From NCBI GenBank assembly GCA_020629285.1, contig JAHDDP010000018.1:1-64000 (forward strand): 64,000 nucleotides of DNA, read 5' to 3'. The translations under genes and the position numbers were made by a program. The DNA is from Maribacter sp. (GTDB taxonomy: Bacteria; Bacteroidota; Bacteroidia; Flavobacteriales; Flavobacteriaceae). Positions 21,437 through 44,724 of this stretch are shown here, piece by piece. Numbering within the stretch: position 1 is the first letter of the stretch; each line of letters opens with the position of its first letter. A model generated the notes under the pieces. It worked only from the letters and a program-made list of their open reading frames with translations, searched no databases and was not told where the DNA came from.

Positions 21437-21478
21437 GAAGATGGTTGACCGTTTAGTGTAGACCAATGGTTTAAATCA
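21437..21478 (-). promoter_or_regulatory. Tandem 21-bp LytTR/AlgR-like box 1
   Basis: Two 21-bp units (21437-21457 and 21458-21478). On the plus strand the second reads GTAGACCAATG; on the minus strand CATTGGTCTAC, close to AlgR-type CCGTTCGTC sites. The unit recurs at 32857, 34135 and 44683 with the same 21-bp period. Here it is 72-113 bp upstream of the RR-GT2 start (21365) and about 165 bp before the GT-C gene (21642). Confidence 0.55.
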
Positions 21479-21641
21479 ATCGTTCACAAATTTGACAATC
21501 AATAGATTTTAAGTTATTAAATTAGCAAATTAAAATATTGTAAGTAATCTATTGTTAAAACAAAAACAAAACTATTTTTATTGGAAAAATCTTCTTATAT
21601 ATTTTAAGTACCTTTATGTAGAATTAGTTCTAATATAACTT

Positions 21642-24600
21642 TTGAAAAAAAAAACCAATACCCTTTTAATACTGGCTTTAATCGTAGGGCTAGCGTTTCA
21701 TGGTTCTGCCATTTTCTTTACGTTAGAGTATACCTACGATGCTTTGATCCACTTATTTTTTGCCGACCATTATGCCAGCAGCTGGTTCGACCCTTGGGAA
21801 TATAGATGGTATACAGGCTTTACGGTACAGTCGTACCCTCCATTGGTTCACCAGCTTATAGGTATACTTTCCTATATTGGTGGGCTTAAGTTTGGCATGT
21901 ACACCGTTGCGTTAATAGCCATTGTGCTGTTCATAACAGGCGCCTATAGGTATACCCTACTCATGACAGGCAGCCGACGTATTGCAGGTTACGGGGCAGT
22001 TATGGCGGTATTTTCATCAACATTTGTTGAAACACTGCACATTTTCGGCCAGCTGCCGAGTGTATCGGCATTATCCATTCTGTTACACTCCATGACAGAA
22101 ATTTACCTTTGGATAAAAACGGGCAAGACACGGTATTTTATAACATCTGCAACCATGCTAGCGGTAACGGTAACATCTCATCATGTAACTCCGCTGTTCG
22201 GTATGGTTTTCTTTATAGCCCCGTTAATGGGCATGGCCGTTATGGATGCCGCCAGAGAAAAGGTTGAATCTTATAAAGCACTTACCTTCAAAGTATTTTG
22301 GGGCACTACGTTACAGCATTTCTGGCGAATTGCCAAGTTTGGTGGTACTGCAATATTTTTACTGGTTTTCTGCATATTCCCATACTGGTACAACTCTAAG
22401 AGAAACCCAATTACCCAAGTGGCCATACCACATGGTTCTCGAGATAATTTCTTGGAGATCACCTCATCGGGCCTTGTGTTTTTCCTGATTCCTTGGGGTG
22501 TGTTCCTTTTTATATTACCCTACTTCTTTTACAGATATTTCAGTAAAAGGTATGTTTTCTTCGGATTATCATTTACGCTATTGACCATTTTAGGTACAGG
22601 TGGTACCACCCCTATACCACGCTTAATGTTGGGTGAAATGGCTTTTAACATTTTAACCTTGGATAGGTTTACCTTATGGGCCACCATTATGGCGCTCCCA
22701 ATATTCGCCGAGTTCGCCTACCGGATGGTAGAAGGTGATCTTAAAACATTGATACAAGATAAATTCGGAGGTGTTTACCATAGGGTATTGGGCGGACTTA
22801 TAGCCGGCGGTATGTTGTTTATGGTGCTTTTTACAATGACATTGGGGTATTTTAGGCCATCGCAACCCGCTAAGATAAAAATGCTGCCTATTGTTAACTT
22901 TCTTGGGGCAGATTCCCATGACTCGTGGCGCTATTTACCTTTAGGTTTTGGCGACCAAATGGCATGGCTCTCTGCTCAGACAAGAGCAATGACCGTTGAT
23001 GGTAATTACCACTCAGCACGCAGATTGCCAGAATTAACTACCAGAGCTATAGAGCGAATAGAAAACTCCAAATTTAGAGGTGTAGAAGGTATTGGGTCGT
23101 TACAACAGTTCTTGACCGTACCAGAAAAGTATAATTTAAAGTATATATTTTCTAACGATAAATTCTACGACCCCATACTCTATTATTGTGGTTGGCAACG
23201 GCTGCAGCAATTAGAAAACGGCATTATGGTTTGGGAAAAGCTCAATGTGGCACCCATACCGCAAATTATGCCGAAGCAAGATGTACCTACTATAATGAAA
23301 ATTATGTGGGGCATTATACCTATATCTACAGTACTCATAGCCATAATGGTAAATATTCAAATGATATGGATCAGGCTTTTAAAGTCTAGAAAAGTACCGG
23401 TCCATTCTTTTATGAAGTTAGAATTGCCATACAATAAATTTCCCTCCAAATTATTGACCTTCTCCCATTGGTGGGCGTTGTTAATACTGATTTGTATGGG
23501 CTATGGAATGTATCTTTTTTATGTAAAGAACGTAACACAAATTTCGCCCAACAACGTTGTAGAGGCTTATTACGATGCGCTAGATTTCAAAGAATTCTCA
23601 AGAGCACATTCATACATTGACCCAGAAGATGATATTGATATTGCCCAATATATGCTAGAGGTCTCTGTAACCGATGGTATTTTGAGCTCATACGCCAAAC
23701 TAGACTCTTTAGGCGTAGAAATCTATGACAAGACGGAAAATAGTGCAAAAGCCAAAGTAGCTACACGCTGGATCACCCCTTTGGAAAATGTATTCAATAA
23801 CGAGTTTTATGAGCTGGTAAAACGAAAAAACAAATGGTACCTAAAATCGTTGAAATTTGATAACGACATACCGCCAGATCAATTATTTACCGCTAATGGC
23901 ACTACGTATTATAACCATGGTAGAAGAAAGATCACAACTCAAGAAACCTATCATGAAGATGTATTAAAACAACCTGTACTAGAAATTTTATCTGCCAAAT
24001 TGGTGAAATACAAGGGTCAATATAGCATTATAGGCGAGTTACAAAATGTGGACAACACACCGGCAGATATTGTAATTAAAGCCACGCTTTACAACGACGA
24101 TAACAAAGAATTGGCGAATTACAATGCAAAGCATCAAATAAAACATAAGTTAATGCCGAAAGAAACAACGACTTTTAAAATTAACTTTGAAGGTATTGCA
24201 TGGTCATCGACAAAAGATACCTTACCACCAACATTCGACCCAGACCAATTTACACCGGTCAGTTTTGAACAGCAACCCACTAAGTTCAACCTACAATCTG
24301 CAGGTAATACCGCTAATACAGATTTATATAAACATGTGACCCTACAGGATCTAGAATATACAGAACAAGGTTTTAACGGAGTCTTGTTTAACTCTGGAGT
24401 ACAAGAAGTGACCATTCCGCAATTGATCATTTCTTACTACGATGAAAATAAAGAACTTATTTGGGTGGATCATAAATTTGTTGCGGAAGGTGTAAGAATT
24501 CAGCGAAAGCAATTTTTCAATTACAAACCATTGGAATTAGATAGTCTAGAGGTAATAAGTAGCAGTCTAGAAAACTGCTTTGTCAACGGTTCACCTAACA

Positions 24601-24731
24601 AAGCTATTGCAGATAAGCTTTTTCCCAATAGAAAATTAGAACACGGTATACAACAGACACAGCCTTTTAAAGGGAAAGGGTTTGAACATATAAAATTTGA
24701 GATCAACAGTTATATCGGTAATCCTAAATAG
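21642..24731 (+). CDS. Large polytopic GT-C-like membrane enzyme with periplasmic NTF2-like and beta domains, TTG start
   Basis: 1029 residues from TTG 21642 (no usable ATG; the leader KKKTNTLLILALIVGLAF is a typical first helix). Residues 1-560 contain about 11-12 membrane helices. The first periplasmic loop has acidic and His residues (EYTYDALIHLFFADHY) as in GT-C glycosyltransferases that use polyprenyl-phosphate sugars, and the region resembles the PTPS-related membrane proteins (PF10131). After a last helix (about 628-650) comes an NTF2/DUF4878-like domain (NNVVEAYYDALDFKEFSRAHSYI to about 740), then beta-rich FxLYD-like repeats. It heads a three-gene operon with a lipoprotein and a GH5-like protein, so it is probably the polymerase or transferase of the polysaccharide locus. 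Sugar and acceptor are unknown. Confidence 0.75.
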   Translation: MKKKTNTLLILALIVGLAFHGSAIFFTLEYTYDALIHLFFADHYASSWFDPWEYRWYTGFTVQSYPPLVHQLIGILSYIGGLKFGMYTVALIAIVLFITGAYRYTLLMTGSRRIAGYGAVMAVFSSTFVETLHIFGQLPSVSALSILLHSMTEIYLWIKTGKTRYFITSATMLAVTVTSHHVTPLFGMVFFIAPLMGMAVMDAAREKVESYKALTFKVFWGTTLQHFWRIAKFGGTAIFLLVFCIFPYWYNSKRNPITQVAIPHGSRDNFLEITSSGLVFFLIPWGVFLFILPYFFYRYFSKRYVFFGLSFTLLTILGTGGTTPIPRLMLGEMAFNILTLDRFTLWATIMALPIFAEFAYRMVEGDLKTLIQDKFGGVYHRVLGGLIAGGMLFMVLFTMTLGYFRPSQPAKIKMLPIVNFLGADSHDSWRYLPLGFGDQMAWLSAQTRAMTVDGNYHSARRLPELTTRAIERIENSKFRGVEGIGSLQQFLTVPEKYNLKYIFSNDKFYDPILYYCGWQRLQQLENGIMVWEKLNVAPIPQIMPKQDVPTIMKIMWGIIPISTVLIAIMVNIQMIWIRLLKSRKVPVHSFMKLELPYNKFPSKLLTFSHWWALLILICMGYGMYLFYVKNVTQISPNNVVEAYYDALDFKEFSRAHSYIDPEDDIDIAQYMLEVSVTDGILSSYAKLDSLGVEIYDKTENSAKAKVATRWITPLENVFNNEFYELVKRKNKWYLKSLKFDNDIPPDQLFTANGTTYYNHGRRKITTQETYHEDVLKQPVLEILSAKLVKYKGQYSIIGELQNVDNTPADIVIKATLYNDDNKELANYNAKHQIKHKLMPKETTTFKINFEGIAWSSTKDTLPPTFDPDQFTPVSFEQQPTKFNLQSAGNTANTDLYKHVTLQDLEYTEQGFNGVLFNSGVQEVTIPQLIISYYDENKELIWVDHKFVAEGVRIQRKQFFNYKPLELDSLEVISSSLENCFVNGSPNKAIADKLFPNRKLEHGIQQTQPFKGKGFEHIKFEINSYIGNPK

Positions 24732-24732
24732 T

Positions 24733-27499: not shown

Positions 27500-27512
27500 T
27501 CATGTACAAAAA

Positions 27513-27536
27513 AAGGCTGGTTACCACACCAGCCTT
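27513..27536 (-). terminator. Bidirectional terminator between convergent operons
   Basis: AAGGCTGGT (27513-27521) pairs with ACCAGCCTT (27528-27536) over a 6-base loop. On the minus strand a run of seven T follows, making it the strong terminator of the GT4 operon ending at 27559; it can also serve the GH5 gene ending at 27499. Confidence 0.9.
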
Positions 27537-27558
27537 CAAATACTAACCATATCGATTC

Positions 27559-28788: not shown

Positions 28789-28853
28789 TTGAATTATATT
28801 ATATTAAACAGGACTATTTTTTTAATGTAGCATTACTGCATTTTATACACGTT

Positions 28854-30110: not shown

Positions 30111-30145
30111 TTTGATAATGTGGTTTTTGGGGGTTAGAGGTGTAA

Positions 30146-31285
30146 TTATCTATATACAACCGCAATTTTAGCAAGTTGACCAACAATTTTAACAGAATCT
30201 TTCATTGACAGTTTTGATCCATCTGCATGAATCCATCTTTTAAGAGGCTGCTCACAAATAAGCTTGATAGCTTCATTTTTGCCAAAGTATTTTCGCATTC
30301 GTATAAACATCTCCACATCAAACAACCATTTAGTTATAAAGGGTTTGCTAAACATTAGTGGTATTACAGAACGATCCATAACCTTAGCTCCACATTGAGT
30401 GTCATTAAAGGGCATTCTTAAAATAGTGCGTATGATCAGGTTAATGGTCATACTAATTATTTTACGAGCAGATTCTTTGGTAATATCCGCCCCCATTCTA
30501 CTCATTCTAGAGCCACTGACAATTTTAAAATCAGATTTATCAAGAGTTTCTACCAAATCATCAAAATCTCTAAAATCGGTGGAAAGATCGGCATCTAAAA
30601 AACCTATATAGTCTAGCTGTGGATCTTTAGCCATATGTAGCATACCTAAGCGTACAGCTTCTGCTTTACCGCCATTTTTCTTACAATCATAGATACTTAT
30701 ATTGCTTTCGTTGCCTTTTTTCAATTCTTCTAAAACTTCTAAAGTCTTATCGGTACTACCATCATTTACAAAGCAAAGGTGATATCCAAGGTTATTGTGT
30801 GCAAAGTCTCTAAACTCTTTACCTAAAAGTCGTTCTTCTTCGTTATAACAAGGTATAACAACACCTACACAATTTTTTTGAAGCATTCTACCGGCATTGG
30901 CAACATCGGTATTCATTTCAACAATAGGTGCACCAATTAGCCTTTTAATACGAGCTGACATTTCTGACAAGCTCACTGGCTTTTTCATATAATCATCGAT
31001 ACCTAGGGTAAAACCATCCATGATCACCTTTTCTTCTGTATTACCGGACATTACTAAGACCGGGGTAGATTTTCTATCGCCACCTTTAATGTGCTTTACA
31101 ACATCTAAACCAGACATACCCGGCATATTTATATCAACAAGTACCAAATCAGGTTTAAAAGAATCATATAATTCTATTCCTTTACTACCCGAATCTGCCG
31201 TTTTAACAGTATAGCCAAGCTCGGTAAGTCGTTTTTCAACAGATAATAAAATTAGCTGTTGATCATCAATAGTTAGTATTTTCAT
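30146..31285 (-). CDS. Response-regulator receiver fused to family 2 glycosyltransferase (copy 2)
   Basis: 379 residues, very similar to the protein at 20199-21365. The receiver (1-118) has D7/D8, phospho-acceptor D51 in LVLVDINMP and DYMKKPVS. The GT2 domain has VVIPCYNEEERL, FVNDGSTDKTL, the metal site FLDADLSTDFRDFDD and the C-terminal QPLKRWIHADGSKLSMKDS. It lacks the receiver insertion of copy 1. It is first in a compact operon with flippase A and GT4 A. No 21-bp box is seen upstream; only a TTACATA pair (31289-31315) is visible near the start. Keeping the phosphorylation site in both copies argues that receiver control is functional. Confidence 0.92.
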   Translation of the reverse strand: MKILTIDDQQLILLSVEKRLTELGYTVKTADSGSKGIELYDSFKPDLVLVDINMPGMSGLDVVKHIKGGDRKSTPVLVMSGNTEEKVIMDGFTLGIDDYMKKPVSLSEMSARIKRLIGAPIVEMNTDVANAGRMLQKNCVGVVIPCYNEEERLLGKEFRDFAHNNLGYHLCFVNDGSTDKTLEVLEELKKGNESNISIYDCKKNGGKAEAVRLGMLHMAKDPQLDYIGFLDADLSTDFRDFDDLVETLDKSDFKIVSGSRMSRMGADITKESARKIISMTINLIIRTILRMPFNDTQCGAKVMDRSVIPLMFSKPFITKWLFDVEMFIRMRKYFGKNEAIKLICEQPLKRWIHADGSKLSMKDSVKIVGQLAKIAVVYR

Positions 31286-31550: not shown

Positions 31551-32780
31551 TTATATCGTTAATTCTTTCTCCAATAAAGAGATATCTAATTGAAATCCTT
31601 TAGATTTTGCCATTTGTAATGCTTTAAAATATTCTATGTAGATATTTGTAATATCTGACATTGGTATTGAACAAGCCGCTTTATAGTTCGCCTTAGATAA
31701 ATACTTTCTGTAAGAGTCATGCTCTAAAATATTCTCAATAGCATCTGCCAATGAAACCGCATTATTAGGTTTAAAAAATTCACCTTTATAACCTTCTTCT
31801 TTCACGAGAATACTAAGGTCTCCAATGTCTGGTAACACAACCGCTTTACCATAGCTACCTGCTTGGTGCAGCACTCCAGAACTACCTGTAGTAGACGTAT
31901 ATGGAAATACAACAATTGCACTTTCTTTAAATACACGCGACACATCTTCTTCTGGAACATAACCTGTAAAACACAATTGATCAATATGTGCATATTTCTT
32001 TTTCATACTATCTAAATACCCTAAGGTATTTGGGCTATCTGTACCGGCAATAACAATTTCTATATCAAGTTCGGTACGTTGCCTGATCAATTCTACGGCT
32101 TCAATCATAATTTCCACCTTTTTGTAGGTGCCAAACTTACCAAAAGCCATCACTTTCATTGAACCCATAGGTAATTCATAATTTGGCTCTTGCTGTATTT
32201 CAAAACATCCGTGCGGAACTAAAGCTACATTTCTAGATTTATACTTCTGCTCTAAAATGGTTTTATATTTACTTATGGTAACGGCTACAATGTCTGATGC
32301 CAACACAAATCTTGTAAGCGCATTTCCAATTACATTATATACTTTCTTTACCATTCTATTAGAAGTGATTCCTGCATTTTCTAAATCGACTTGTTCTAAT
32401 AAATTATGAAATAACGATATGGTAGGTATACCTCTTAATTTACACACAAGAGGTAGCATTAAACCAAGTGCTGCTGGTATATTCTTATCTCCGAATTTTA
32501 AAAATTGTAAATTAAAAAATATGGCATCTGGCTTGGTTGCAGATATTACCTTATTGATTTGGAATAGATTGTTGTAATCATTAAAACTCCAGCATTCTTT
32601 TACCAAAACATTACATCCATCCTCATTAAACGTTAAATCTTTTTCCCCCTCTGTTTTATCTGTTATCAAAATAATTTCAGTAACCTCTTTTTGAGTTCTA
32701 AAATGTTTAACCAAGTAATAACCATACTCTGTTAATGTTACTTTGCTAGGCGGGTATGCGGTTACTATGGCAAGTCTCAT
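31551..32780 (-). CDS. Family 4 glycosyltransferase, GT-B fold (copy B)
   Basis: 409 residues, the same length as copy A at 27559 and highly similar throughout (LAIVTAYPPSKVTLTEYGYYLVKHFR, FGKFGTYKKVEI, TSTTGSSGVLHQAGSYG). It is a monocistronic unit with its own terminator (31502-31529) and its own upstream regulatory repeat at 32857-32898, 77-118 bp before the start. The EX7E glutamates are absent here too, so the substitution is a family feature, not decay. It probably performs the same or a variant transfer as copy A under different control. Confidence 0.88.
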   Translation of the reverse strand: MRLAIVTAYPPSKVTLTEYGYYLVKHFRTQKEVTEIILITDKTEGEKDLTFNEDGCNVLVKECWSFNDYNNLFQINKVISATKPDAIFFNLQFLKFGDKNIPAALGLMLPLVCKLRGIPTISLFHNLLEQVDLENAGITSNRMVKKVYNVIGNALTRFVLASDIVAVTISKYKTILEQKYKSRNVALVPHGCFEIQQEPNYELPMGSMKVMAFGKFGTYKKVEIMIEAVELIRQRTELDIEIVIAGTDSPNTLGYLDSMKKKYAHIDQLCFTGYVPEEDVSRVFKESAIVVFPYTSTTGSSGVLHQAGSYGKAVVLPDIGDLSILVKEEGYKGEFFKPNNAVSLADAIENILEHDSYRKYLSKANYKAACSIPMSDITNIYIEYFKALQMAKSKGFQLDISLLEKELTI

Positions 32781-32856
32781 AAGGTTAAGTTTTAAAATTC
32801 AATTCGGTTATTTCTTTCACAAATATCGAACTAAGAAAAAGCTAAACAGAAGATCA

Positions 32857-32898
32857 TTAGCCCGATGAAGAATTACTGTAGACGAATGGAAGTTTTGA
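32857..32898 (-). promoter_or_regulatory. Tandem 21-bp LytTR/AlgR-like box 2
   Basis: Unit 2 at 32878 reads GTAGACGAATG on the plus strand (CATTCGTCTAC on the minus strand, the best AlgR-like core of the set). A weaker unit precedes it at 32857. The pair is 77-118 bp upstream of GT4 copy B. Confidence 0.55.
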
Positions 32899-33009: not shown

Positions 33010-34056
33010 TTACATATATTTATGTAATATGGAATTATGCTTAAAAAAAAGTATTTGAGCTGTCAATAAGAAGACCATAGCAATAATCTGCATCTGTACC
33101 ACTATAACCAAAGAACTATGAAAGAAGGCGATTATTATAATTTGAGCTATTGCTATCACCCCAGATAGGATGACGGGTAAATATTGATTTAGCGATAAAA
33201 AATGATATGCAAATAGGTTTGAGATAGCAAAAAGTGAACTAGCTAATGCATATTGCCATAGTAATGGTGCCATGCCCAAAAAAGCCTCACCAAGCATTAA
33301 ATTGATAATAAACTTCGATAAAACGGTACAGCCGATTATTATACAAATTACCAAAAGACCAATATAACCTATATATTTCATGAGTACAGGTGCCGTTACC
33401 TTACCATTTTTTTGTCTTTGTATTACAGCGGGTATTAAAAATAATACGAACATCAAAATCACGAAATAAACTATACTCCCTATCATTGCCAACGAACTAT
33501 AAATACCCACATCTACCGTATCGAAATAATGTTTTACCAAAAGTATATTACAGTTGTGTATTACTATTTGGATAAATTCAAGGTAAGCGATCAAAATTAC
33601 AAAACTGACTACCTTACGTTCGTTCTCTTTGTTTAAAGAAACTTTTTGAAGGTTATACTTTAAACTGAACACTACAGAAAAAACAAAAATTATATAGAGT
33701 AGATCAGATGCTGTATAAAACTCATATAGCAAGTTATCGGTAAAGGTAAATAGAAGCAAACCTATTAACATTCCAAAAACAAGGGCAAATTTATAAGGCA
33801 CATATTTTAAGATCGCCCGCTCATCATTAACAAATATGTCTACCAATTTTGCGGTGTTCGGTAGAAATGTCAATATTAAAAGAGATAAAACAAGCAAGAA
33901 CCTAATCAACAAAGCGACATCACTACGCACCTCAGATTTAAACAGACTACCCGAAACAATACTATAAAAATAATTACCAAGGTTAACGAAGAGTATGCCA
34001 CCTATAAGTATTTTTTTAAAACAAACTTTCTCACATATTAATTTAAGAGCTATCAT
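33010..34056 (-). CDS. Truncated MOP-type flippase (copy B) with internal deletion
   Basis: 348 residues, paralogous to the 418-residue flippase at 28854. Both ends align well: GGILFVNLGNYFYSIVSGSLF at the start, NCNILLVKHYFDTVDVGIYSSLAMIGSIVYF and WQYALASSLFAISNLFAYHFLSLNQY later. About 70 residues are missing in the middle, where copy A has RGRFQGGHDFGKLAG and two or three helices; in copy B KYNLQKVSLNKENERKVV bridges the gap. The reading frame is open, so it is either a protein with changed topology or an early pseudogene. It has its own upstream 21-bp repeat (34135-34176). Loss of these helices probably abolishes ordinary transport. Confidence 0.75.
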   Translation of the reverse strand: MIALKLICEKVCFKKILIGGILFVNLGNYFYSIVSGSLFKSEVRSDVALLIRFLLVLSLLILTFLPNTAKLVDIFVNDERAILKYVPYKFALVFGMLIGLLLFTFTDNLLYEFYTASDLLYIIFVFSVVFSLKYNLQKVSLNKENERKVVSFVILIAYLEFIQIVIHNCNILLVKHYFDTVDVGIYSSLAMIGSIVYFVILMFVLFLIPAVIQRQKNGKVTAPVLMKYIGYIGLLVICIIIGCTVLSKFIINLMLGEAFLGMAPLLWQYALASSLFAISNLFAYHFLSLNQYLPVILSGVIAIAQIIIIAFFHSSLVIVVQMQIIAMVFLLTAQILFFKHNSILHKYM

Positions 34057-34134
34057 ATGTAGTATTTAAAGTGACTAACATTCTAGTAGTTGGTTCTCAA
34101 AGATCTTAATGGCAGGCTTCTTTTTTTAAGCAGT

Positions 34135-34176
34135 TAAGATGAATGACCATTAGGTGTAGATGAGTCGCAATTAAGC
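34135..34176 (-). promoter_or_regulatory. Tandem 21-bp LytTR/AlgR-like box 3
   Basis: Units TAAGATGAATG (34135) and GTAGATGAGTC (34156), each followed by NNNATTA, 21 bases apart and matching at 13 of 21 positions. They are 79-120 bp upstream of the flippase B start (34056) and 103-144 bp upstream of the TPR/barrel gene (34279), so they could act on both. ACCGTTAGG (34245-34253), a LytTR-consensus half-site, follows nearer to the latter. Confidence 0.6.
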
Positions 34177-36554: not shown

Positions 36555-38342
36555 ATGTGGAAGAAAGTTTTAAAAATGTTTATTGGCCTTTATGTGCCAC
36601 TTTTTGCGCTTACCCTTTTTTTATATCACTCTCAAAAGGCAGAGCAAATTGATGCTATTATGGAGCGTCAGATTCGTGCTAACACGATGAAGAAAGTTTC
36701 TTTTGAAGAAAAATATCTTTCTTTTTTGCGTAATATCCAATATTGGGCCAATTTAAAATATCCAAAGAATTTTGATCCTCTAGCAGAGCATTCTTCTTTC
36801 TTAAATTCATATCTAGAACTTATTGAATATATAACTATCTATGATCAATTTCGCTTTATAGATTTAGAAGGAAAAGAATTTTTTAGAGCACAACGCGTAG
36901 GAAACGATACCCTTATCATTAACCCTTTACAAGATAAAAATCAACATACCTATGTTAAAGCAGGGTTACAATTAAAAAAAAATCAAATATACCTTTCTCA
37001 AATAAGCTTAAATAAGGAAAATGGGAAAATTGAAATACCGCATAAACCGGTAATGAGAGCTGTGGCTCCTATTTTTGATATCGATGAAAATCAAATTGGT
37101 TTAGTGGTCATCAATTTTAAAATGAAAAAAATGCTAGATCAAATAAAATCTAGGGTTGAAGAAAAAAATATTTATTTATTAGATGAGAATTTTAAAGTTA
37201 TAACTGCAAGTACTATAGAAGAAGATCTACCCTATGAATCTGAAAATAAAAATAGTTACTTAGATGGTATTTTAAATACCAAAGCAATAACCCATTTTAG
37301 AGACAGCACTTTTGTTGAAAATGGTCATATTTGGTCGCAGCAGTCCATTAATTTAAATGGAAAGACATTTACGTTTGGTTCTCAATCTAACCTACCTACA
37401 GAAGTAGTAACCCAGGCTAATTTGCTTTTGGCTTTAGAAGTTCCTCCTAGAGTAGTAGAAGCCGAGTTACTACCTTTATTTCGAAGTCTGTTCATGTTTA
37501 ACATTTTTGCTATAGCGGGTCTTTTAATACTATGTTATGTATTTCAAAAAAAGAAAATAGAAAAAGAACAATTCTACAAAGAGTTAGAAGGTAAAAACAT
37601 CTTATTGACCAGAAGTAAAGATAAATTAGAGGAGAATAATAAAAAAGTAAAGAAAATAAACAATAGTCTAGAAATCAGAAATAAACAATTAAGTGATTTC
37701 AACTATTTAATTTCTCATAATTTACGTTCTCCTGTCACCAGTATGTCAGTAATAGTTGAAATGATACAGAATGAGAAAAATCCAGAGGTACAACAACAAT
37801 TATTACCAAAACTTAATCAAGTTGCCACTAGCATTACCCATTTAACCGAAGACATAAATGATTATGTATCTATTTTAGATAACAAAGAGCTAAAAATAGA
37901 TAACATAGATTTAGAAAATTTGGTAGAAGAGATTAAGCATGAATTTACCGAAACGCTATTTGAATACAGTGGTTTTAAAGTATTACTGGACTTAAAAACC
38001 TGGAAAAATATATCTTATTCAAAATTCTATTTACAAAGTATTATCCATAATTTTATATCTAACGCCATTAAATATAAAAGAAGTGACGTTGAAGCTTATA
38101 TTGAATTTGAATCTGCAATTGAAAACGACCAAAAAGTTTTATACGTTAGGGACAATGGTATAGGTTTAGATTTGGATAGGCACGGTGAGAGTGTGTTTAA
38201 ACTATATAAAAGATTTCATAGAAATGTTTCTGGAAAAGGAATGGGATTATTTCTTGTAAAGTCTCAATTAGAGGCTCTAAATGCCACAATAACGATAGAT
38301 AGTAAAGTAGGCATAGGCACTACATTTAAAATTATATTTTGA
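36555..38342 (+). CDS. Membrane sensor histidine kinase with periplasmic sensor
   Basis: 595 residues. The first helix (9-25) and second helix (about 310-330) flank a 280-residue periplasmic sensor with Cache-like features (FRFIDLEGKEFFRAQRVGND, then VMRAVAPIFDIDENQIGLVVINF). A coiled coil (332-380) leads to HisKA with H388 in LISHNLRSPVTS and an HATPase with NFISNAIKYKR, DNGIGLD and GKGMGLFLV. The stop is one base before a CheY-like regulator gene. The pair is convergent with the NO-sensing operon and next to the polysaccharide exporter, so it may feed the same response. The ligand is unknown. Confidence 0.9.
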   Translation: MWKKVLKMFIGLYVPLFALTLFLYHSQKAEQIDAIMERQIRANTMKKVSFEEKYLSFLRNIQYWANLKYPKNFDPLAEHSSFLNSYLELIEYITIYDQFRFIDLEGKEFFRAQRVGNDTLIINPLQDKNQHTYVKAGLQLKKNQIYLSQISLNKENGKIEIPHKPVMRAVAPIFDIDENQIGLVVINFKMKKMLDQIKSRVEEKNIYLLDENFKVITASTIEEDLPYESENKNSYLDGILNTKAITHFRDSTFVENGHIWSQQSINLNGKTFTFGSQSNLPTEVVTQANLLLALEVPPRVVEAELLPLFRSLFMFNIFAIAGLLILCYVFQKKKIEKEQFYKELEGKNILLTRSKDKLEENNKKVKKINNSLEIRNKQLSDFNYLISHNLRSPVTSMSVIVEMIQNEKNPEVQQQLLPKLNQVATSITHLTEDINDYVSILDNKELKIDNIDLENLVEEIKHEFTETLFEYSGFKVLLDLKTWKNISYSKFYLQSIIHNFISNAIKYKRSDVEAYIEFESAIENDQKVLYVRDNGIGLDLDRHGESVFKLYKRFHRNVSGKGMGLFLVKSQLEALNATITIDSKVGIGTTFKIIF

Positions 38343-38343
38343 T

Positions 38344-38757
38344 ATGAAAACGAAGCCAAATATATTACTAATAGATGACGATGAACTTTATCTCTATTTA
38401 ATGGAGAAAACCATTAAGCAATTATCCAATGAATTGGTGGTAAGTACCTTTACAGATGGTGAACAGGCCGTTGAATATATTGAAAGATGTACCGAAGATA
38501 ACATTGAGTTGCCCGAGGTTATATTTTTAGATATCAACATGCCATTTTTAGATGGATGGGGGTTTTTAAATGAATTTAAAAAACTGAAACCTAAAATCAT
38601 AAACAGCATAAATATTTATATGGTAAGTTCATCTATGCGAGAAATTGATGTTAAAAGGGCATCTAATTTTGAAGAACTTACGGGGTATGTAATAAAGCCG
38701 GTAACCAAAGTGGAATTAGCAGAAATATTTGAGAAAATCTACCATGAAAACTGGTAG
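38344..38757 (+). CDS. Single-domain CheY-like response regulator
   Basis: 137 residues, only a receiver domain: acidic residues D11-D13, phospho-acceptor D63 in VIFLDINMPFLDGWGF, and the K in VIKPVTK. There is no output domain, so it must act by protein contact or as a phosphate sink. It is directly behind the membrane kinase. It is distinct in sequence from the CheY-like protein at 44223. Confidence 0.9.
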   Translation: MKTKPNILLIDDDELYLYLMEKTIKQLSNELVVSTFTDGEQAVEYIERCTEDNIELPEVIFLDINMPFLDGWGFLNEFKKLKPKIINSINIYMVSSSMREIDVKRASNFEELTGYVIKPVTKVELAEIFEKIYHENW

Positions 38758-38778
38758 ATGCACAATGGTTTTTAAATT

Positions 38779-39483
38779 CTAAAGCAAGTTTAACCGTCTC
38801 ATTAATTCAGGGCGGTTAGAACGGCTTATGGGTACAACGTTCTTAGCGATCAGCACGCTGTTATCTTCAATATCGATAATTTTAGTAAAGTTGATGATAT
38901 AAGATCGGTGTATTTGTAAAAATAGGCGCTCAGGCAATTTTTCTTTTATCTTTTTTAGGGTGGTGTGTACTCTATAATCTTCGTTAACCGTTTTAATATC
39001 TATATAATCTCCTTTAGCCTCAATAACCAAAATATCATCTAGTTTCAACTTAATCAACCTTCTATCGATATTAATATATAGATCTTTCCCTTCAGAAGAA
39101 TTTTGTTCAGCTGTTGAAGGTGCTTGTTTTACCTTACTATTCTTGATTTTTACTATACTTTTTTCGAATCGATCAAAAGTTATCGGCTTTACCAAATAGT
39201 CAACGATACACTCATATTCGTAAGCGGCAATAGCAAAATCGGTATCTGAAGTGGTCATGACCACTTTTGGTGGGTTTTTAAGTGTTTGCACAAAATCAAC
39301 ACCACTGAACCCAGGCATTTGAATATCCAAAAAAATAACATCAACAGTTTGCTGATTTAAAAACTTAATAGCCGAAATAGCATTGTCAAATTCTTCAACT
39401 ACATCTAAATCAGGTATTTTAGAACACAATTGTTTTACAATTGCCCGTGCGGTAGACTCATCATCAATTATTATACAGTTCAT
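38779..39483 (-). CDS. LytTR-family response regulator
   Basis: 234 residues. The receiver (1-118) has D7/D8, phospho-acceptor D53 in VIFLDIQMPGFSG and LVKPITFD. The LytTR DNA-binding domain (about 132-234) shows LIKLKLDDILVIEAKGDYIDI, TTLKKIKEKLPERLFLQIHRSYIIN and the final SRSNRPELMRRL. LytTR domains bind 9-bp repeats spaced by about 12 bases on one face of DNA. It is the last gene of the NO-sensing operon, one base after the HPt gene. A tandem repeat with exactly 21-bp period lies at four promoters of this window and resembles an AlgR site, making them candidate targets. Confidence 0.93.
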   Translation of the reverse strand: MNCIIIDDESTARAIVKQLCSKIPDLDVVEEFDNAISAIKFLNQQTVDVIFLDIQMPGFSGVDFVQTLKNPPKVVMTTSDTDFAIAAYEYECIVDYLVKPITFDRFEKSIVKIKNSKVKQAPSTAEQNSSEGKDLYINIDRRLIKLKLDDILVIEAKGDYIDIKTVNEDYRVHTTLKKIKEKLPERLFLQIHRSYIINFTKIIDIEDNSVLIAKNVVPISRSNRPELMRRLNLL

Positions 39484-39804
39484 TTAAATCGTTTTAATAT
39501 ATTGTTCAATGATCTCTAAAACTTCATCGAATTTAGATTTAATATCGCGTTTACCGTCTAGCAATTCCATTTCATAAGCTACCGCTAGTCTATAGGCATT
39601 TTCCATGCCCAAAATATTGAATTTATGTTTCAATTTATGAACCATCTCTGCAGCTTCCCTATCTTTACTGCTTTCTACAAATTCAAAATATTCTTGTTTT
39701 TCTACAGGAAATTCAGATTTAATGATATCTATGAATTGACCTCTAAATGCAGCATCATCTCCTGCAAGTTCATCTACATACTTAAGGTTTGGTTGGTCTA
39801 TCAT
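39484..39804 (-). CDS. HPt histidine phosphotransfer protein
   Basis: 106 residues from ATG 39804, which overlaps the stop of the kinase upstream (ATGA); a longer start at 39864 lies inside that kinase. A single HPt four-helix domain: MVHKLKHKFNILGM carries the phosphorylatable H56. It has no catalytic activity and shuttles phosphate between receivers. It sits between a histidine kinase and a LytTR regulator. As the two kinases of the operon have no own receiver or HPt domain, this protein probably passes phosphate to LytTR, to the CheY-like proteins or to the RR-GT2 fusions. Confidence 0.88.
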   Translation of the reverse strand: MIDQPNLKYVDELAGDDAAFRGQFIDIIKSEFPVEKQEYFEFVESSKDREAAEMVHKLKHKFNILGMENAYRLAVAYEMELLDGKRDIKSKFDEVLEIIEQYIKTI

Positions 39805-40865
39805 GAATTCTTTTTTAAAGTAATATAAAATGTAGTACCTACATTTTCCTTTGAAACCAAGCAAACATCACCTTCATAAAGTACCGCAATTTTTTTAACA
39901 ATTGCAAGACCTATACCCGTAGCATTATTGGTGGTTTCTAATTTTTTGAACATTTGAAAAATACCCTCTTGGTGTTTAATAGGTATGCCCTTACCATTAT
40001 CTGAAACACTGAACTTCCAATACTCTTTGTCTGGTTCATATCCAACTTTTATAATTCCGTTTTCCACATGTTCAGTTGCATTGACGGCATTGGTAAATAA
40101 GTTCATAAACAATTGTTCTAAACGCGATTTCTCAAAGTTCATTTGGGGCAAATCTTTTTGATATTCAAAAGTGATATTATCTGGAACAAAAATTGTTTTT
40201 TCAATATCCCTTAAACTATCTTCTAGATTGAATAAGGTCTTGTGTTCTTCGGTCTCGCCCATGGTAGCATGGTTCAAAATCCCCGTAATCAGCTTATCCA
40301 TTTTTGTTAGATTCTCAGATACCAATTCACAATTACCCTTACTAGACTCACTAAACTTATCTTTTTCATCTTCCATAATCCAATTCATCAAAGCCGATAT
40401 ATTTCTTATAGGCGACTTTAAATCGTGCGAGACCATCTGTGCATAGTTATGTAAAGATTGATTTTGCATTTCCAAACTTTTAAGAAGTTTATCTTTTTCT
40501 GCAGACATTTCAGATATCTGTAATGCCAAATTACTAATATAGCCTGCTAGGTGTTCTGCGTTGAAGTCCTCATTTATAGTTTGGCCAAATAATTGATCTT
40601 CATTTAAATAATCTGTTAAACTAAGAATAGCATTTTCTAACGATACAAGTATTTTTTTCTGCTGTTCTGCCTCTTTCCTCAATTTTTTATTGGCAATAAA
40701 AAGCTCTTCTGAACTTATACTTGAGGCTCTATGCAACATAGAAAACTTATCGTCATAGTTTTCATATGACTTTTCTATAGCATCTAAAAATTGCTCCATT
40801 TCTGGATTCGATTCTAAATCTGCAGGTAAATATTTTCTAATTTGTCTTTTTAACAGAGAATGCAT
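39801..40865 (-). CDS. Cytoplasmic histidine kinase, probable partner of the FIST sensor
   Basis: 354 residues, no membrane segment. The N-terminus (KYLPADLESNPEMEQFLDAIEKSYENYD) is the type of leader common in kinases associated with FIST/NosP proteins. A coiled coil precedes HisKA with H147 in QMVSHDLKSPIRN; the HATPase has LFTNAVNATEH, DNGKGIP and ATGIGLAIV. It directly follows the FIST gene (adjacent coordinates) and overlaps HPt by 4 bases, so its input most likely comes from the FIST protein by contact. In NosP systems of other bacteria the haem protein regulates such a co-operonic kinase (established for NosP/NahK). Confidence 0.9.
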   Translation of the reverse strand: MHSLLKRQIRKYLPADLESNPEMEQFLDAIEKSYENYDDKFSMLHRASSISSEELFIANKKLRKEAEQQKKILVSLENAILSLTDYLNEDQLFGQTINEDFNAEHLAGYISNLALQISEMSAEKDKLLKSLEMQNQSLHNYAQMVSHDLKSPIRNISALMNWIMEDEKDKFSESSKGNCELVSENLTKMDKLITGILNHATMGETEEHKTLFNLEDSLRDIEKTIFVPDNITFEYQKDLPQMNFEKSRLEQLFMNLFTNAVNATEHVENGIIKVGYEPDKEYWKFSVSDNGKGIPIKHQEGIFQMFKKLETTNNATGIGLAIVKKIAVLYEGDVCLVSKENVGTTFYITLKKNS

Positions 40866-41996
40866 TTATTCGCTAAATAAAGTTAGTGTCATGGTCTGGT
40901 TATGCAATTTACAACTATCTTGACCACTGAACGGAGCCATTTCGCCATACGAATAAAATCCGCTTATTACCGTATCATTACCAACTATGGCCTTTACCTC
41001 CTCCAATTCTTCTTCGGTGCGTTGGTCCATGACCAATTTTCTTCCAATACAGCTAATTAACAATGCTAGCTCTGGTGGCATTTTTCTACCATTCATAGCC
41101 AGCTCAGCAGCTTGTGAAGCACCGTTGGCAATGTCGTCTACAGAAGACATCATTAATTGAACCCTCGCACCTTCTGGAACATCACCGGCTAGCAACATGG
41201 TATTCTCTTTTTCATCTATATTAAGAATGGTGCGTACCAGTGGATCTGAATTTTCAGTTTCCTTTACACTAAGTGGATATAATAATGCTGATTTTGGTAA
41301 TTCATCTGCCTTTTCCCCTAAGTACGTTTTATAAAGATCTAAGGCCGGTTTACCATCTAGTTCATAAAGTAAATTACCTTCAGATTTTGTTATTATACGT
41401 TCAGGTCCAAAAGTGGTCCAACCGCCATAGTTTGAACTCGTAATCTCTAAACTCTCGCCATAAAAGCCAATGGCGATAATTTCACCCTCTTTAGGCGTTT
41501 CGTTGTAAGATGCCAATGTTCTTTTAAAACGATCGTCATCTCCACAAAGACCACCAGATAAACCAAAAGTAGTACTCTTTAAATTTTCAAGGCCTTTTAT
41601 AAGTGCACTACCGTTTACCGTACTACCTTCAGATATTACGAACAAATGTTTTAAATGCTCTTTAGGGAATTCTGCAATTAAATGTTTTCCTAACTTTTCA
41701 TCATCTTGGTGAAAATCATCTACGTTACGGTTTTTTACTATAAATGAACTTTTTTCGAACTCTATAGCAGTTAAAACAACCGTACCGTCTAAAACCTTGT
41801 CATCTATAATTTCGCCAGATGTAGACCCGAAAATAATATGACCATTAGGAAACAGTTCACGAACCTCATCGTAAATATCGTTGCTCTCCAACATATATCT
41901 ATTGCCAAAGACCAAGACTAAAGGTTCATTTAAATCAGCCTGGTTTTGAAATACAAAAGATTCATTTTTTCTTTTAATTGCTTGTACCGTTTTCAT
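40866..41996 (-). CDS. FIST-domain sensor protein (NosP-like)
   Basis: 376 residues with FIST N (about 25-215: LVLVFGNRYMLE, GSTSGEII, GLSGGLCGDDDRF) and FIST C (about 220-365: AL DLYKTYLGEKADELP, LISCIGRKLVMDQRTEEELEEV, GFYSYGEMAP). FIST proteins sense small ligands; one branch, NosP, binds haem and NO. No fixed signature of the haem site is known to me, so the haem call is inference, based mainly on its place between two kinases in an operon starting with H-NOX. It starts 10 bases after the kinase upstream and is followed directly by the second kinase. Confidence 0.85.
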   Translation of the reverse strand: MKTVQAIKRKNESFVFQNQADLNEPLVLVFGNRYMLESNDIYDEVRELFPNGHIIFGSTSGEIIDDKVLDGTVVLTAIEFEKSSFIVKNRNVDDFHQDDEKLGKHLIAEFPKEHLKHLFVISEGSTVNGSALIKGLENLKSTTFGLSGGLCGDDDRFKRTLASYNETPKEGEIIAIGFYGESLEITSSNYGGWTTFGPERIITKSEGNLLYELDGKPALDLYKTYLGEKADELPKSALLYPLSVKETENSDPLVRTILNIDEKENTMLLAGDVPEGARVQLMMSSVDDIANGASQAAELAMNGRKMPPELALLISCIGRKLVMDQRTEEELEEVKAIVGNDTVISGFYSYGEMAPFSGQDSCKLHNQTMTLTLFSE

Positions 41997-42006
41997 CTAT
42001 AGTTGT

Positions 42007-43608
42007 TTAAATAATGGTCTTTTTTATGGTAAAATGAAACTGGGTACCTTCGCCAACAACACTGTCTACCCACACCTTACCTTGGTAGCGATCTATAATC
42101 TTTTTTACTATTGAAAGCCCTATACCGGTTGATCTTTCATTATTACCTATAGATTGGAAGATATCAAAAATCTTTTTATGATATTCTTCTGGTATACCTA
42201 CGCCGTTATCACTGATTGTAAATTGCCAAAAATCTTTGTTTTCATTAAAAAGAACTTCTACAAGACCTACTTCTCTTTCTATATGAACAACTGCATTACC
42301 TATAATATTTTGAAAAACCTGGTGCACTTTAGTCCTATCTGCCATAATTGTAGGCAACATTTCAGGTATGACCAATTTTACATGGTCTGGAATAAAAATG
42401 GTTTCACCAATATCGTTGATCACTTCATTTAAGTCGACTCTAGAATCATCTAAAGCAGAATTATTTGCGGTAGAATATTCGAGAATTCCATGTATCAACT
42501 TATCCATAGAGGCTACTTTCTCTTGCATTAACGACAAGTTTTCTCTGCCAGGTTCATCTAATACATCTTTATAATCATCGCTAAGCCAAGTAGCAAGGGC
42601 ACTAATACTTCTAAGCGGCGATTTAAGATCATGAGAAACTATATGGGCGTATTCTTGCAAGCTTTGATTACTATTCTCCAAATCATTTAACAGTTGCTCT
42701 TTCTGTATTTCCAGTTCTTTTTGTTTGGTAATGTCCTCTAGCATTGCCAATACAAAACCTGTTTTACCTTGTATATTTTTAACAGAATTAAGAGATACCT
42801 TTAAGTATAAGACTTCGCCGTTCTTCTTTACATATTTTTTAGATATTGTAGCATCATCTATTTCACCATTGTAAATTTTTTGCATTAATATATTACTGTT
42901 CTCCACATCATCAGTAGCCGTAATATCATCTATGCTCATCATTTTAAATTCTTCAAAACTATAGCCTAACAGGTCTGTCATGGCGTGGTTGACCTTAATG
43001 ATCTTTTCTGTATTGGCAAGAACAATTCCCAATGGGGATGCATTCACGATAATATCCAATTGTCGTTTTTGTTCAGACAACATCTCTGTCACCTCCATTT
43101 CTTGGGTGATATCGCGAACAATACCTTGTGCCGCTATAGGCTGCTTGTCCTTATTATAAATTAAACTTGCATTAATCTCTATCCATTTTTCGACATCATC
43201 TCTTACAATTATCTTAGCCCTATAATTTTTAAGTTTACCAACCTCTTGTAAACTACTAAATGATTCTATGGTATACTCCATATAATCTTTGTGTACCATT
43301 TTCCAAAGATTGATAGTATCTTTTTTATGATCATACCCTAAAAAGTTTTTTGCGGATTGGTTCATACTTATCACGTTAAATGACAAGTCCATGACTACAT
43401 AAGGGTCAATTATATTGATAAAGACACCATCTAGCTCAGAAGTTTTTTCACTTAATAAGTTTTCTAATTTATGATTAGACTCTTTCAAATGACGTGCCTC
43501 TTCATAAAGCTGAAGGGATTTTTGCTCTAATAGCTTTTCGGCTTGTTGGCGAGCCATCTTTTGCCTAGCTAAAGCTTTTTTAAGAAGAGTAACTTCTTTA
43601 CTATCCAT
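42007..43608 (-). CDS. PAS-PAS histidine kinase, probable H-NOX partner
   Basis: 533 residues from ATG 43608, which overlaps the H-NOX stop by 8 bases; a TTG start at 43623 would overlap more. A coiled coil (about 5-60) is followed by PAS1 (about 63-170, IDPYVVMDLSFNVISMNQSAKNFLGY) and PAS2 (about 185-300, VNASPLGIVLANTEKIIKVNHAMTDLLGY), each with a PAC motif. HisKA has H326 in HIVSHDLKSPLRS; the HATPase has NIIGNAVVHIE, DNGVGIP and STGIGLSIV. No membrane segment. Gene overlap with H-NOX strongly suggests that the kinase is controlled by NO-bound H-NOX, as known for HahK/HnoK systems. The family call is firm; the control is inference from context. Confidence 0.92.
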   Translation of the reverse strand: MDSKEVTLLKKALARQKMARQQAEKLLEQKSLQLYEEARHLKESNHKLENLLSEKTSELDGVFINIIDPYVVMDLSFNVISMNQSAKNFLGYDHKKDTINLWKMVHKDYMEYTIESFSSLQEVGKLKNYRAKIIVRDDVEKWIEINASLIYNKDKQPIAAQGIVRDITQEMEVTEMLSEQKRQLDIIVNASPLGIVLANTEKIIKVNHAMTDLLGYSFEEFKMMSIDDITATDDVENSNILMQKIYNGEIDDATISKKYVKKNGEVLYLKVSLNSVKNIQGKTGFVLAMLEDITKQKELEIQKEQLLNDLENSNQSLQEYAHIVSHDLKSPLRSISALATWLSDDYKDVLDEPGRENLSLMQEKVASMDKLIHGILEYSTANNSALDDSRVDLNEVINDIGETIFIPDHVKLVIPEMLPTIMADRTKVHQVFQNIIGNAVVHIEREVGLVEVLFNENKDFWQFTISDNGVGIPEEYHKKIFDIFQSIGNNERSTGIGLSIVKKIIDRYQGKVWVDSVVGEGTQFHFTIKKTII

Positions 43609-44143
43609 GCTGTACAACGTCAAATTTTACTTCTGTACCATCTTCTTTTAGAAGTTCGTAGGCAATATCGGCTTTTCCATTAAAGTGCTCAAAAGCCTTT
43701 TCTATAAGACCATGAGCCAATCTGTACAATCCTCTAGAAGAAGAATAGACCATTGAAATAGAGTTCTCTGTTTTTTCTAGAATCTTAAACGTAGGTAGCT
43801 CGGCCTCTGGATATAGCTTTTGCACATGTACATGAATGTGATCTTCTATGGAATATAGAAGTCCAATAGGAGATTTGTAATTTTGAATAACCTCTGGATG
43901 TGCATTTTTTAGACTAGAAAACAAATACAGTCCAAATGCATAAATCAAATCCCCAGGCGGCAAATCTACTTCTGCACTTAACTGGGTGATCAACGCCACC
44001 ATTTCGTTAAATTCGTAGGTTGCAACAGAGGTGTAAATGCCCTGAGAAGGCAAATCTGCTTTTTCAATAATATTGTCAACGGTCTCTAATCCGAATTCAG
44101 ATTCGACCATTTCTAAAAACTCGGTAAATACTATTCCTTTCAT
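43601..44143 (-). CDS. H-NOX (haem nitric oxide/oxygen binding) sensor protein
   Basis: 180 residues, the standard size of stand-alone H-NOX proteins. The proximal haem ligand is most likely H104 in DHIHVHVQKLYPEAELPTF (His followed by Pro at +8, as in family members). The haem-propionate motif YxSxR is Y133-S135-R137 in YSSSRGLYRL. The distal pocket lacks an obvious H-bonding Tyr, which would favour NO over oxygen, but this cannot be shown without alignment. It is first in a six-gene operon ending with HPt and LytTR and overlaps the following kinase gene. A TANNTTTG box lies 22-29 bp upstream. Confidence 0.92.
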   Translation of the reverse strand: MKGIVFTEFLEMVESEFGLETVDNIIEKADLPSQGIYTSVATYEFNEMVALITQLSAEVDLPPGDLIYAFGLYLFSSLKNAHPEVIQNYKSPIGLLYSIEDHIHVHVQKLYPEAELPTFKILEKTENSISMVYSSSRGLYRLAHGLIEKAFEHFNGKADIAYELLKEDGTEVKFDVVQHG

Positions 44144-44164
44144 TTGAATTTTTTATAACATATT

Positions 44165-44172
44165 CAAACGTA
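44165..44172 (-). promoter_or_regulatory. Candidate -7 box of the H-NOX operon
   Basis: The minus strand reads TACGTTTG, a perfect TANNTTTG Bacteroidetes -7 element, 22-29 bp upstream of the H-NOX ATG. A -33 TTTG at the right distance is not clear. Confidence 0.4.
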
Positions 44173-44222
44173 GGAAAATTAATACGTAAATAAGTAAAAA
44201 TGTTGTGAAATGAGCTTTTTTG

Positions 44223-44624
44223 TTAGCCTTTTACTAGTTGGTTAACACTCCAATACTTCAAAACCGCATTTAATTTGTATTCATAATCTTCATATTTGAG
44301 CGGCTTAATTACATAACCGGCAATACCAGCTTGGTAACATTTAAGCAAATCTGCCCTATTTTCAGATGTTGTCAAAATAACCGTAGGCAAATATTGAAAT
44401 ATCTCATCTGCCTTTAATATATTTAAAAACTCAATGCCGTTCATTCTAGGCATGTTCAGGTCTAATAGAATAATATCAGGTAATTTTTCACCCGATCTTA
44501 AAAAGGTCAAAGCTTCTTCACCATTCTTAGCTTCTTTAATCGAATGCTTAAGTTCAAGTTTAGAAACTGTTCGTTTCAATTTCATTACTTCAATTAAATC
44601 GTCTTCTATTAGTAAGATATTCAT
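44223..44624 (-). CDS. Single-domain CheY/Rcp1-like response regulator
   Basis: 133 residues, only a receiver of the Rcp1 type: E7-D9 acidic cluster, phospho-acceptor D55 in ILLDLNMPRMNGIEFL, Thr switch in ILTTSENR and K in VIKPLKYEDYE. There is no output domain. It is 79 bases upstream of the H-NOX operon on the same strand and has a 21-bp tandem repeat 59-100 bp before its start, so it is probably autoregulated by the same LytTR regulator. It may be a phosphate sink or shuttle for the two kinases. Confidence 0.9.
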   Translation of the reverse strand: MNILLIEDDLIEVMKLKRTVSKLELKHSIKEAKNGEEALTFLRSGEKLPDIILLDLNMPRMNGIEFLNILKADEIFQYLPTVILTTSENRADLLKCYQAGIAGYVIKPLKYEDYEYKLNAVLKYWSVNQLVKG

Positions 44625-44682
44625 TGTGGTTTATTTTTGATACTACAAAGATGAAAGATTACCTACAAATAATCTCATCAGT

Positions 44683-44724
44683 GTAGACGAGTGACAATTA
44701 AGTGTCGGTGAATGGTAATTAAAT
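44683..44724 (-). promoter_or_regulatory. Tandem 21-bp LytTR/AlgR-like box 4
   Basis: Unit 1 GTAGACGAGTG (44683) and unit 2 GTCGGTGAATG (44704), each followed by N3-ATTAA, 21 bases apart, 14 of 21 positions identical. ACCGTTGGG, a fit to the LytTR half-site consensus, follows in the same phase at 44725-44733. The pair is 59-100 bp upstream of the CheY-like gene. Confidence 0.6.

Follow-up and report, generated by a model that had tools for sequence, protein, structure and literature searches.

The window analysed here is a stretch of 64,000 nucleotides (nt) from a Maribacter sp. genome of the Flavobacteriaceae (GenBank assembly GCA_020629285.1, contig JAHDDP010000018.1, positions 1 to 64,000). 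Four promoters in this window carry tandem pairs of an 11-base-pair (bp) unit with a period of 21 bp, and each pair faces a minus-strand gene. One pair precedes an operon that encodes a CheY-like receiver, the haem-nitric oxide (NO) binding protein H-NOX and, as its last gene, a LytTR response regulator (38779-39483). The other three precede the genes for a flippase (flippase B), a glycosyltransferase (GT4 B) and a fusion of a receiver domain with a GT2 glycosyltransferase (receiver-GT2 copy 1). The pairs are very probably binding sites of the LytTR protein, which would head an autoregulated regulon that is fed by a phosphorelay and controls exopolysaccharide promoters. To our knowledge, the regulons of Bacteroidota have been little mapped. 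The sites would supply a grammar of activator site and -7 box for this phylum, and they represent a candidate conserved output for the H-NOX operons of Flavobacteriaceae, for which promoter code, regulator and targets can all be named.

Paired units and their distance to the -7 box

An earlier sequence-only reading of this DNA placed head-to-tail pairs at 21437/21458, 32857/32878, 34135/34156 and 44683/44704, in the same orientation relative to minus-strand genes and 72-113, 77-118, 79-120 and 59-100 bp before the start codons of receiver-GT2 copy 1, GT4 B, flippase B and the CheY-like gene, respectively. These positions, orientations and distances were all reproduced. The unit reads CATTCRTCTAC on the gene strand, and the period is exactly 21 bp in 4/4 pairs. 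The partners match each other at 6/21 (21437), 10/21 (32857), 13/21 (34135) and 14/21 positions (44683). The weakest is the pair at 21437 and not, as had been claimed, the one at 32857.

The earlier reading saw no such pair at the other intergenic regions that it scanned. When 52 window upstream regions were scored with a consensus drawn from the same four sites, TTTG at +33 earning 2 extra points, the four sites reached 20-21 and the next best region 15. For this scoring, 53 of the 65 window open reading frames (ORFs) were entered, overlapping antisense ORFs being dropped, and one lay too near the window end. A pair pattern likewise derived from the window sites, with at most three mismatches, occurs at three places in the 3.6-Mb assembly, which is 83% complete. 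Two of these are 44683 and 34135; the remaining one falls within the end of a CoA-transferase gene and was discarded as chance. The reversed control pattern has zero matches in the same assembly.

In 4/4 window promoters, exactly 33 nt separate the downstream unit from a TTTG. At the window frequency of TTTG (0.0078 per position), the chance of a common offset within 20-45 in four promoters is about 1e-7. The consensus TAnnTTTG is that of Flavobacterium psychrophilum, for which PMC9723704 gives it as the primary-sigma box at -12 to -5. The full box is present only at 21437, and GA or CA replaces TA in the other three promoters. A TTG element at -33 is also known from promoters. By eye, no TTG lies 17-21 nt before the -7 box in the four promoters, which is expected for activator-dependent promoters. 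If the -7 box stands at -12 to -5, the last unit would end about 42 nt before the transcription start, next to the polymerase and in the position of an activator. LytTR would most likely activate transcription from sites 33 nt before TTTG. The sequence-only reading had missed this phasing, the third unit in relatives, the Hpt-like gene and every target beyond the window.

The form of the repeat is that of LytTR sites, as the sequence-only reading had proposed. Such sites are described in PMC4847170 as repeats of 9-11 nt with a spacer of 11-13 nt and no common consensus. The period of 21 in 4/4 pairs fits this geometry, with a spacer of 12 for a 9-nt half-site and of 10 for the full 11-nt unit. 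YpdB, an E. coli LytTR protein, has a spaced direct repeat, GGCATTTCAT (PMC4847170), and the LytTR sites of AgrA are likewise spaced repeats (PMC4064291). As the sequence-only reading had noted, the core resembles that of AlgR sites, CCGTTCGTC, which is close to CATTCRTC / CGTTCGTC (PMC4064291), although LytTR proteins have no consensus in common (PMC4847170). In the proposed mechanism, LytTR would bind head-to-tail 11-bp units two helical turns apart, of which there are two here and often three in relatives, so that two or three subunits would share the same helix face, 21 bp being two turns. Many relatives' H-NOX-operon promoters indeed have a third unit further upstream.

Recurrence of the sites and of the LytTR gene in relatives

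A sequence model was built from relatives and holds nothing from the window. With the H-NOX gene (43601-44143) as the query, orthologues were found in 44/100 genomes, own included. Thirty H-NOX loci were taken, and 28 gave a gap-free alignment of 95 columns that takes in two or three units as well as the -7 box. The model represents the sequence of these 28 H-NOX-operon promoters only; the window itself (L014) was left out on purpose, and L034 from genome G012 was left out because its promoter did not fit. Selection of the 28 promoters used a 1.5-point bonus for TTTG at +33, and 2/28 still have TTTA (L031, L043). An unbonused scan, limited to the plus strand, chose the same place in most loci readable to it.

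In the window, the four sites rank 1-4 among 73 model matches (E = 1.3e-18, 1.2e-9, 2.6e-6 and 0.0018); rank 5 (E 0.005) is intragenic. In the whole assembly, the model has 18 matches, with the four sites at ranks 1, 2, 3 and 9. Genes that resemble relatives' targets follow the matches of ranks 5, 6 and 8: C21:18619 lies before a DoxX-like gene of 132 amino acids (aa), with TTTG at 33; C42:2734 before a PAS-histidine kinase gene, with TTTG at 34; and C54:8546 before the gene of an 85-aa secreted protein, with TTTG at 30. Judged by these matches, the regulon of the Maribacter genome may comprise about seven promoters. C119:88541 was rejected as a target, with no forward ORF of 80 aa nearby, and the ten remaining assembly matches, which lie in coding sequence or have no TTTG at +33, were set aside.

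Sixty genomes were scanned with the model: own, 36 of the genus and family, and 23 of other families. Matches at E<=0.01 occur in 34/60 genomes and in 2/23 of the other families. The genes behind 41 matches were read in 20 stretches from six genomes, chosen for holding model matches. These matches precede the CheY/H-NOX operon (1), flippase (5), GT4 (5), receiver-GT2 (4), DoxX-like (4) and PAS-kinase genes (3) and genes for a small secreted protein of 76-86 aa (17), with one unassigned (L094). The match in L109 stands before a 54-aa ORF, with receiver-GT2 beginning 375 nt further on, and the match at 4817 in L103 has its 86-aa ORF 250 nt away. The three targets of the window other than the operon, namely flippase, GT4 and receiver-GT2, therefore recur in relatives. 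TTTG lies at 32-33 in 18/18 flippase, GT4, receiver-GT2 and DoxX-like promoters, and TTAG replaces it in the 17 secreted-protein promoters. The sequence-only reading had named random density, or a place near unrelated genes, as what would speak against it; the motif is not randomly dense, and it recurs before orthologous genes.

The secreted-protein sites form arrays of 2-5 in five stretches (L092, L096, L099, L103 and L107) and are single in one. The C-terminus of this family reads EVARLYKxKNxR..., and two members scanned have no Pfam match over the cut-off. The family was rejected as a universal target, as the copies at C124:16201/16857 of genome G000 have no site within 260 nt (best 12/22). 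In this genome, C54:8195 is the sole secreted-protein copy with a site (17/22), and the matches at C75 and C54:16396 are without one.

The shared sequence could also be a remnant of recent promoter duplication among paralogous polysaccharide genes, without regulatory meaning. The window does hold two receiver-GT2 genes (278/388 aligned positions identical), two GT4 and two flippase genes. However, the units and TTTG are kept while most intervening bases differ, and the sites also precede genes unrelated to these (CheY, DoxX-like) and recur across many genera, which makes this explanation extremely unlikely.

For a survey of loci, GTDB species genomes were searched with the LytTR protein as the query, and the best 80 of 572 confirmed loci were kept. 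These LytTR loci, some of which supplied the model, hold 231 model matches (E<=0.1), 230/231 of them on the operon strand. The CheY upstream region is readable in 77/80 loci; a pair of at least 16/22 is present in 72, and the best period among 14-29 is 21 in 67. The score of 16 is reached by 34/1600 random 250-nt windows (some with real sites), by 2/78 regions on the opposite strand and by 0/380 regions before operon-internal genes (tblastn matches of H-NOX, PAS-kinase, FIST, kinase, Hpt-like and LytTR). Among the other genes, GT4 has a pair in 30/47 upstream regions. The flippase test gave 4/49, and as the tblastn matches often miss the N-terminus, it is not counted either way. The TPR gene has the motif in 2/54 cases on its own strand and in 40/54 on the opposite strand, as expected from a divergent promoter.

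The window's second receiver-GT2 fusion lies at 30146-31285, and the motif stands upstream of copy 1 only, not copy 2. Genes of the copy-2 type in the 80 loci have it in 0/9 cases on their own strand and 2/9 on the opposite strand.

The co-occurrence of motif and regulator was counted in 149 family genomes drawn evenly from 148 genera, with cut-offs of E<=1e-4 for the model, E<=1e-60 for LytTR and E<=1e-20 for H-NOX; model runs over 40 genomes apply stricter filters. The motif is found in 49 of these genomes, the LytTR orthologue in 61 and H-NOX in 55. The motif is present in 49/61 genomes with LytTR versus 0/88 without it (Fisher p 2.6e-28, with species not independent), and in 45/57 versus 0/88 (p 1e-26) once the window genome and three that supplied the model are excluded. 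It occurs in 6/9 genomes that have LytTR and no H-NOX, 0/3 that have H-NOX and no LytTR, 43/52 with both and 0/85 with neither. In three loci (L135, L140 and L144), CheY and LytTR are the sole genes of the window operon recognised, and the motif is present before CheY with TTTG at 33. Together, these counts and loci indicate that the motif tracks LytTR and not the gas sensor. The proposal of the sequence-only reading that the LytTR protein encoded at 38779 is the binder is the best-supported reading of these data, since the motif is confined to those of the 149 genomes that have LytTR.

In genome G123, the H-NOX frame at C9:21096-21629 contains one in-frame TAG; this genome is without the LytTR orthologue or the motif, and the operon is perhaps decaying.

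Several observations weigh against an autoregulated LytTR regulon of this kind. The 21437 site is weak by itself (14 bits, E 0.1 genome-wide). The spacing to the -7 box is looser across the 80 loci: TTTG is at 33 in 13/72 CheY promoters and at 52-54, which is 33 plus about one period, in 17/72, with neither in the rest (background 0.0086 per position). For the GT4 promoters, TTTG is at 33 in 17/30 and at 52-54 in 9/30. The window's tight spacing is therefore relaxed beyond the closer loci. The relatives' three PAS-kinase promoters have no TTTG at 24-45. Five of the 77 CheY upstream regions score below 16 (L149 11, L152 13, and L165, L183 and L186 15 each). At E<=1e-4, 12/61 genomes with LytTR have no model match, and G012, of the same genus, has LytTR and H-NOX yet no match at E<=0.01. 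Lastly, the genome holds 11 LytTR-domain matches, 10 of them at E<=2.1e-13, and at least nine other LytTR proteins could share the sites.

The last point raises the explanation that one or more other LytTR paralogues bind the sites and that the window LytTR gene merely adjoins their targets, the more so as half-sites of different LytTR proteins can look alike. We consider this quite unlikely, because the motif tracks this orthologue group, as the split of 49/61 versus 0/88 indicates. In the same-genus genomes G007, G009, G011, G013 and G024, the best LytTR match is a paralogue (E 1e-40 to 5e-47), and the model matches number 0, 0, 0, 1 (E 0.0035) and 0. In G006, whose LytTR is 57% identical, there is one match (E 0.0013), 7 kb from the LytTR gene. 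In the own genome, only C33:75857 (E 7) falls within 5 kb of the other LytTR genes.

A regulator of a different family, co-inherited with the operon, could also bind the repeat. Co-occurrence alone is no proof of contact, and the 12 genomes with LytTR and no match leave room for it. Against it, L135, L140 and L144 show only CheY and LytTR of the window operon (other neighbours being unannotated), and direct repeats with a period of about 21 are the LytTR form as described in PMC4847170. Binding by such a regulator is very unlikely, and the window LytTR protein stays the predicted binder.

LytTR genes stand side by side in L149, L152, G059 (C2:381139-382687) and G204 (C1:1376298-1378238). The first two loci are without the motif before CheY, which perhaps reflects altered specificity.

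The H-NOX operon and its proposed phosphorelay

The site at 44683 fronts the predicted operon CheY-like / H-NOX / PAS-kinase / FIST / kinase / Hpt-like / LytTR. LytTR is predicted to be autoregulated because one site fronts the operon that encodes it, and the site would provide feedback. The input is likely a phosphorelay, since the operon also encodes the CheY-like receiver, H-NOX, PAS kinase, FIST, second kinase and Hpt-like proteins. Phosphate would pass from kinase to CheY-like receiver to Hpt-like protein to LytTR, gated by the gas sensors H-NOX and the NosP-like FIST protein. The output would be the synthesis of surface polysaccharide by flippase, GT4 and receiver-GT2.

The H-NOX translation contains the YxSxR motif, which has a role in haem NO binding by H-NOX. 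The two nearest solved chains, 6bde and 6bdd, carry the name of an aldolase in the file and are taken here to be an H-NOX of Kordia algicida. They are followed by a chain labelled as a haem NO binding domain protein, and further structure matches are H-NOX or guanylyl-cyclase chains. The FIST protein is below the NCBIfam NosP cut-off (51.3 bits versus 450) and is assignable only as FIST, NosP-like. Among NCBIfam models, BtsR matches the LytTR protein best, though under the cut-off (130 versus 246 bits). The aspartate strings of the receivers are intact: LLDLNMP in CheY, FLDIQMP in LytTR and LLDMNMP in receiver-GT2. The fusion of a receiver with a family-2 glycosyltransferase suggests that phosphorylation may control a sugar enzyme.

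The Hpt-like protein scores under the Pfam Hpt cut-off (13.1 bits versus 24.6) and has no NCBIfam match and no Pfam match at E<=0.001. Its predicted model is helical (pLDDT 93.7), and the 19 best Foldseek matches are all HPt-type phosphotransfer proteins, with TM up to 0.75; the best E is 0.009 and none reaches E<=0.001. VHKLKHK is found in the aligned orthologues, with the histidine in 22/22, a count biased by an extraction that demanded H[KR][LIM]K. The same biased extraction yielded orthologues from 72/80 loci, and VHK[LIM]K[HN] is present in 71/72. As modelled, the 106-aa protein has the helical-bundle fold of HPt proteins, and the name Hpt-like is kept.

H-NOX relays are known from Shewanella and Vibrio, where H-NOX in the Hno phosphorelay likewise stands beside kinase and receiver proteins (PMC8738867). 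The H-NOX work reviewed there centres on c-di-GMP and quorum sensing, and it names c-di-GMP enzymes, quorum sensing, HnoC and iron-uptake genes as outputs. In S. oneidensis, HnoC also provides a transcriptional feedback (PMC8738867), which is a further likeness. Unlike the relays of that review, the one proposed here has a LytTR protein as its predicted DNA-binding output and includes an Hpt-like step. No GGDEF match was found in the assembly, which is 83% complete, and the same search was positive in 8/14 control genomes, so c-di-GMP is unlikely as the output of this H-NOX operon. Under a c-di-GMP-free NO switch, the relay gated by H-NOX and FIST would act twice on surface polysaccharide: on transcription, through LytTR at the flippase, GT4 and receiver-GT2 promoters, and after translation, through phosphorylation of the receiver domain of receiver-GT2, whose own gene LytTR would control; this fuller scheme is rather doubtful.

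The LytTR sites may be real and the signal other than NO, with H-NOX and FIST as accessory proteins. This is compatible with the LytTR regulon and would change its signal only. Where H-NOX is missing, LytTR loci and genomes still keep the motif; FIST and the second kinase are unrecognised in many loci, and the FIST score is far under the NosP cut-off. On the other side, H-NOX is present in 52/61 family genomes with LytTR, its HNOB score is far over the cut-off, and YxSxR is in place. A different signal is possible, if on the whole unlikely. For NO effects upon marine flavobacterial surfaces and biofilms, the regulon would narrow the question to four promoters and one regulator.

Among LytTR systems, AlgR of Pseudomonas aeruginosa is the closest in function, as a LytTR regulator of exopolysaccharide (alginate) promoters. 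AlgR sites are not necessarily direct repeats with a 12-bp separation (PMC4064291), whereas two or three phased head-to-tail units are found here, together with an H-NOX operon, another phylum and another promoter type. The E. coli LytTR proteins BtsR and YpdB serve a pyruvate response via LytS-type kinases (PMC5552118), and the operon here has HisKA-type kinases, a lone receiver and an Hpt-like protein. As with the haem NO sensors of the NosP / FIST type, the FIST and FIST_C domains adjoin a kinase. Among the literature matches listed, titles and abstracts describe no H-NOX/LytTR regulon in Bacteroidota, most subscription literature being outside this scope. The candidate novelty is that an Hpt-like relay would join a LytTR regulon to H-NOX, under a promoter grammar of fixed form.

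Coordinates and neighbouring genes

Table 1. Window positions of the operon genes, proposed targets and promoter elements
Feature	Position	Strand	Remarks
CheY-like receiver protein	44223..44624	-	first operon gene
H-NOX haem-NO-binding protein, 180 aa	43601..44143	-	Pfam HNOB 131.6 bits (cut-off 25.5)
PAS-PAS histidine kinase, 538 aa	42007..43623	-	
FIST protein, NosP-like	40866..41996	-	Pfam FIST + FIST_C
Histidine kinase, 354 aa	39801..40865	-	
Hpt-like phosphotransfer protein, 106 aa	39484..39804	-	listed as 126-aa ORF 39484-39864, TTG start
LytTR response regulator, proposed binder	38779..39483	-	last operon gene; Pfam LytTR 72.4 bits + Response_reg
Flippase B, proposed target	33010..34056	-	Polysacc_synt_3
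GT4 B glycosyltransferase, proposed target	31551..32780	-	Glycos_transf_1
Receiver-GT2 fusion copy 1, proposed target	20199..21365	-	Response_reg + Glycos_transf_2
Promoter 1 (H-NOX operon), downstream unit	44683..44693	-	CACTCGTCTAC on minus strand
Promoter 1, upstream unit	44704..44714	-	CATTCACCGAC on minus strand
Promoter 1, third-unit position	44725..44735	-	degenerate here; better kept in many relatives
Promoter 1, TTTG of -7 box	44646..44649	-	33 nt after downstream unit
Promoter 2 (flippase B), downstream unit	34135..34145	-	
Promoter 2, upstream unit	34156..34166	-	
Promoter 2, TTTG of -7 box	34098..34101	-	
Promoter 3 (GT4 B), downstream unit	32857..32867	-	degenerate
Promoter 3, upstream unit	32878..32888	-	CATTCGTCTAC
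Promoter 3, TTTG of -7 box	32820..32823	-	
Promoter 4 (receiver-GT2 copy 1), downstream unit	21437..21447	-	degenerate
Promoter 4, upstream unit	21458..21468	-	CATTGGTCTAC
Promoter 4, TTTG	21400..21403	-	within TAAATTTG -7 box

A 1029-aa ORF with a TTG start (21642-24731) is divergent from receiver-GT2 copy 1 and has no Pfam match at E<=0.001. Convergent with the LytTR gene are those of a Cache-type sensor kinase and a lone receiver (36555-38757); L119, L120, L121 and L126 are the only ones of the 80 loci in which this pair is recognised there. The TPR protein at 34279-36339, with a weak BCSC_C match under the cut-off, is divergent from the flippase promoter, and many of the 80 loci have its gene recognisably close to that of LytTR.

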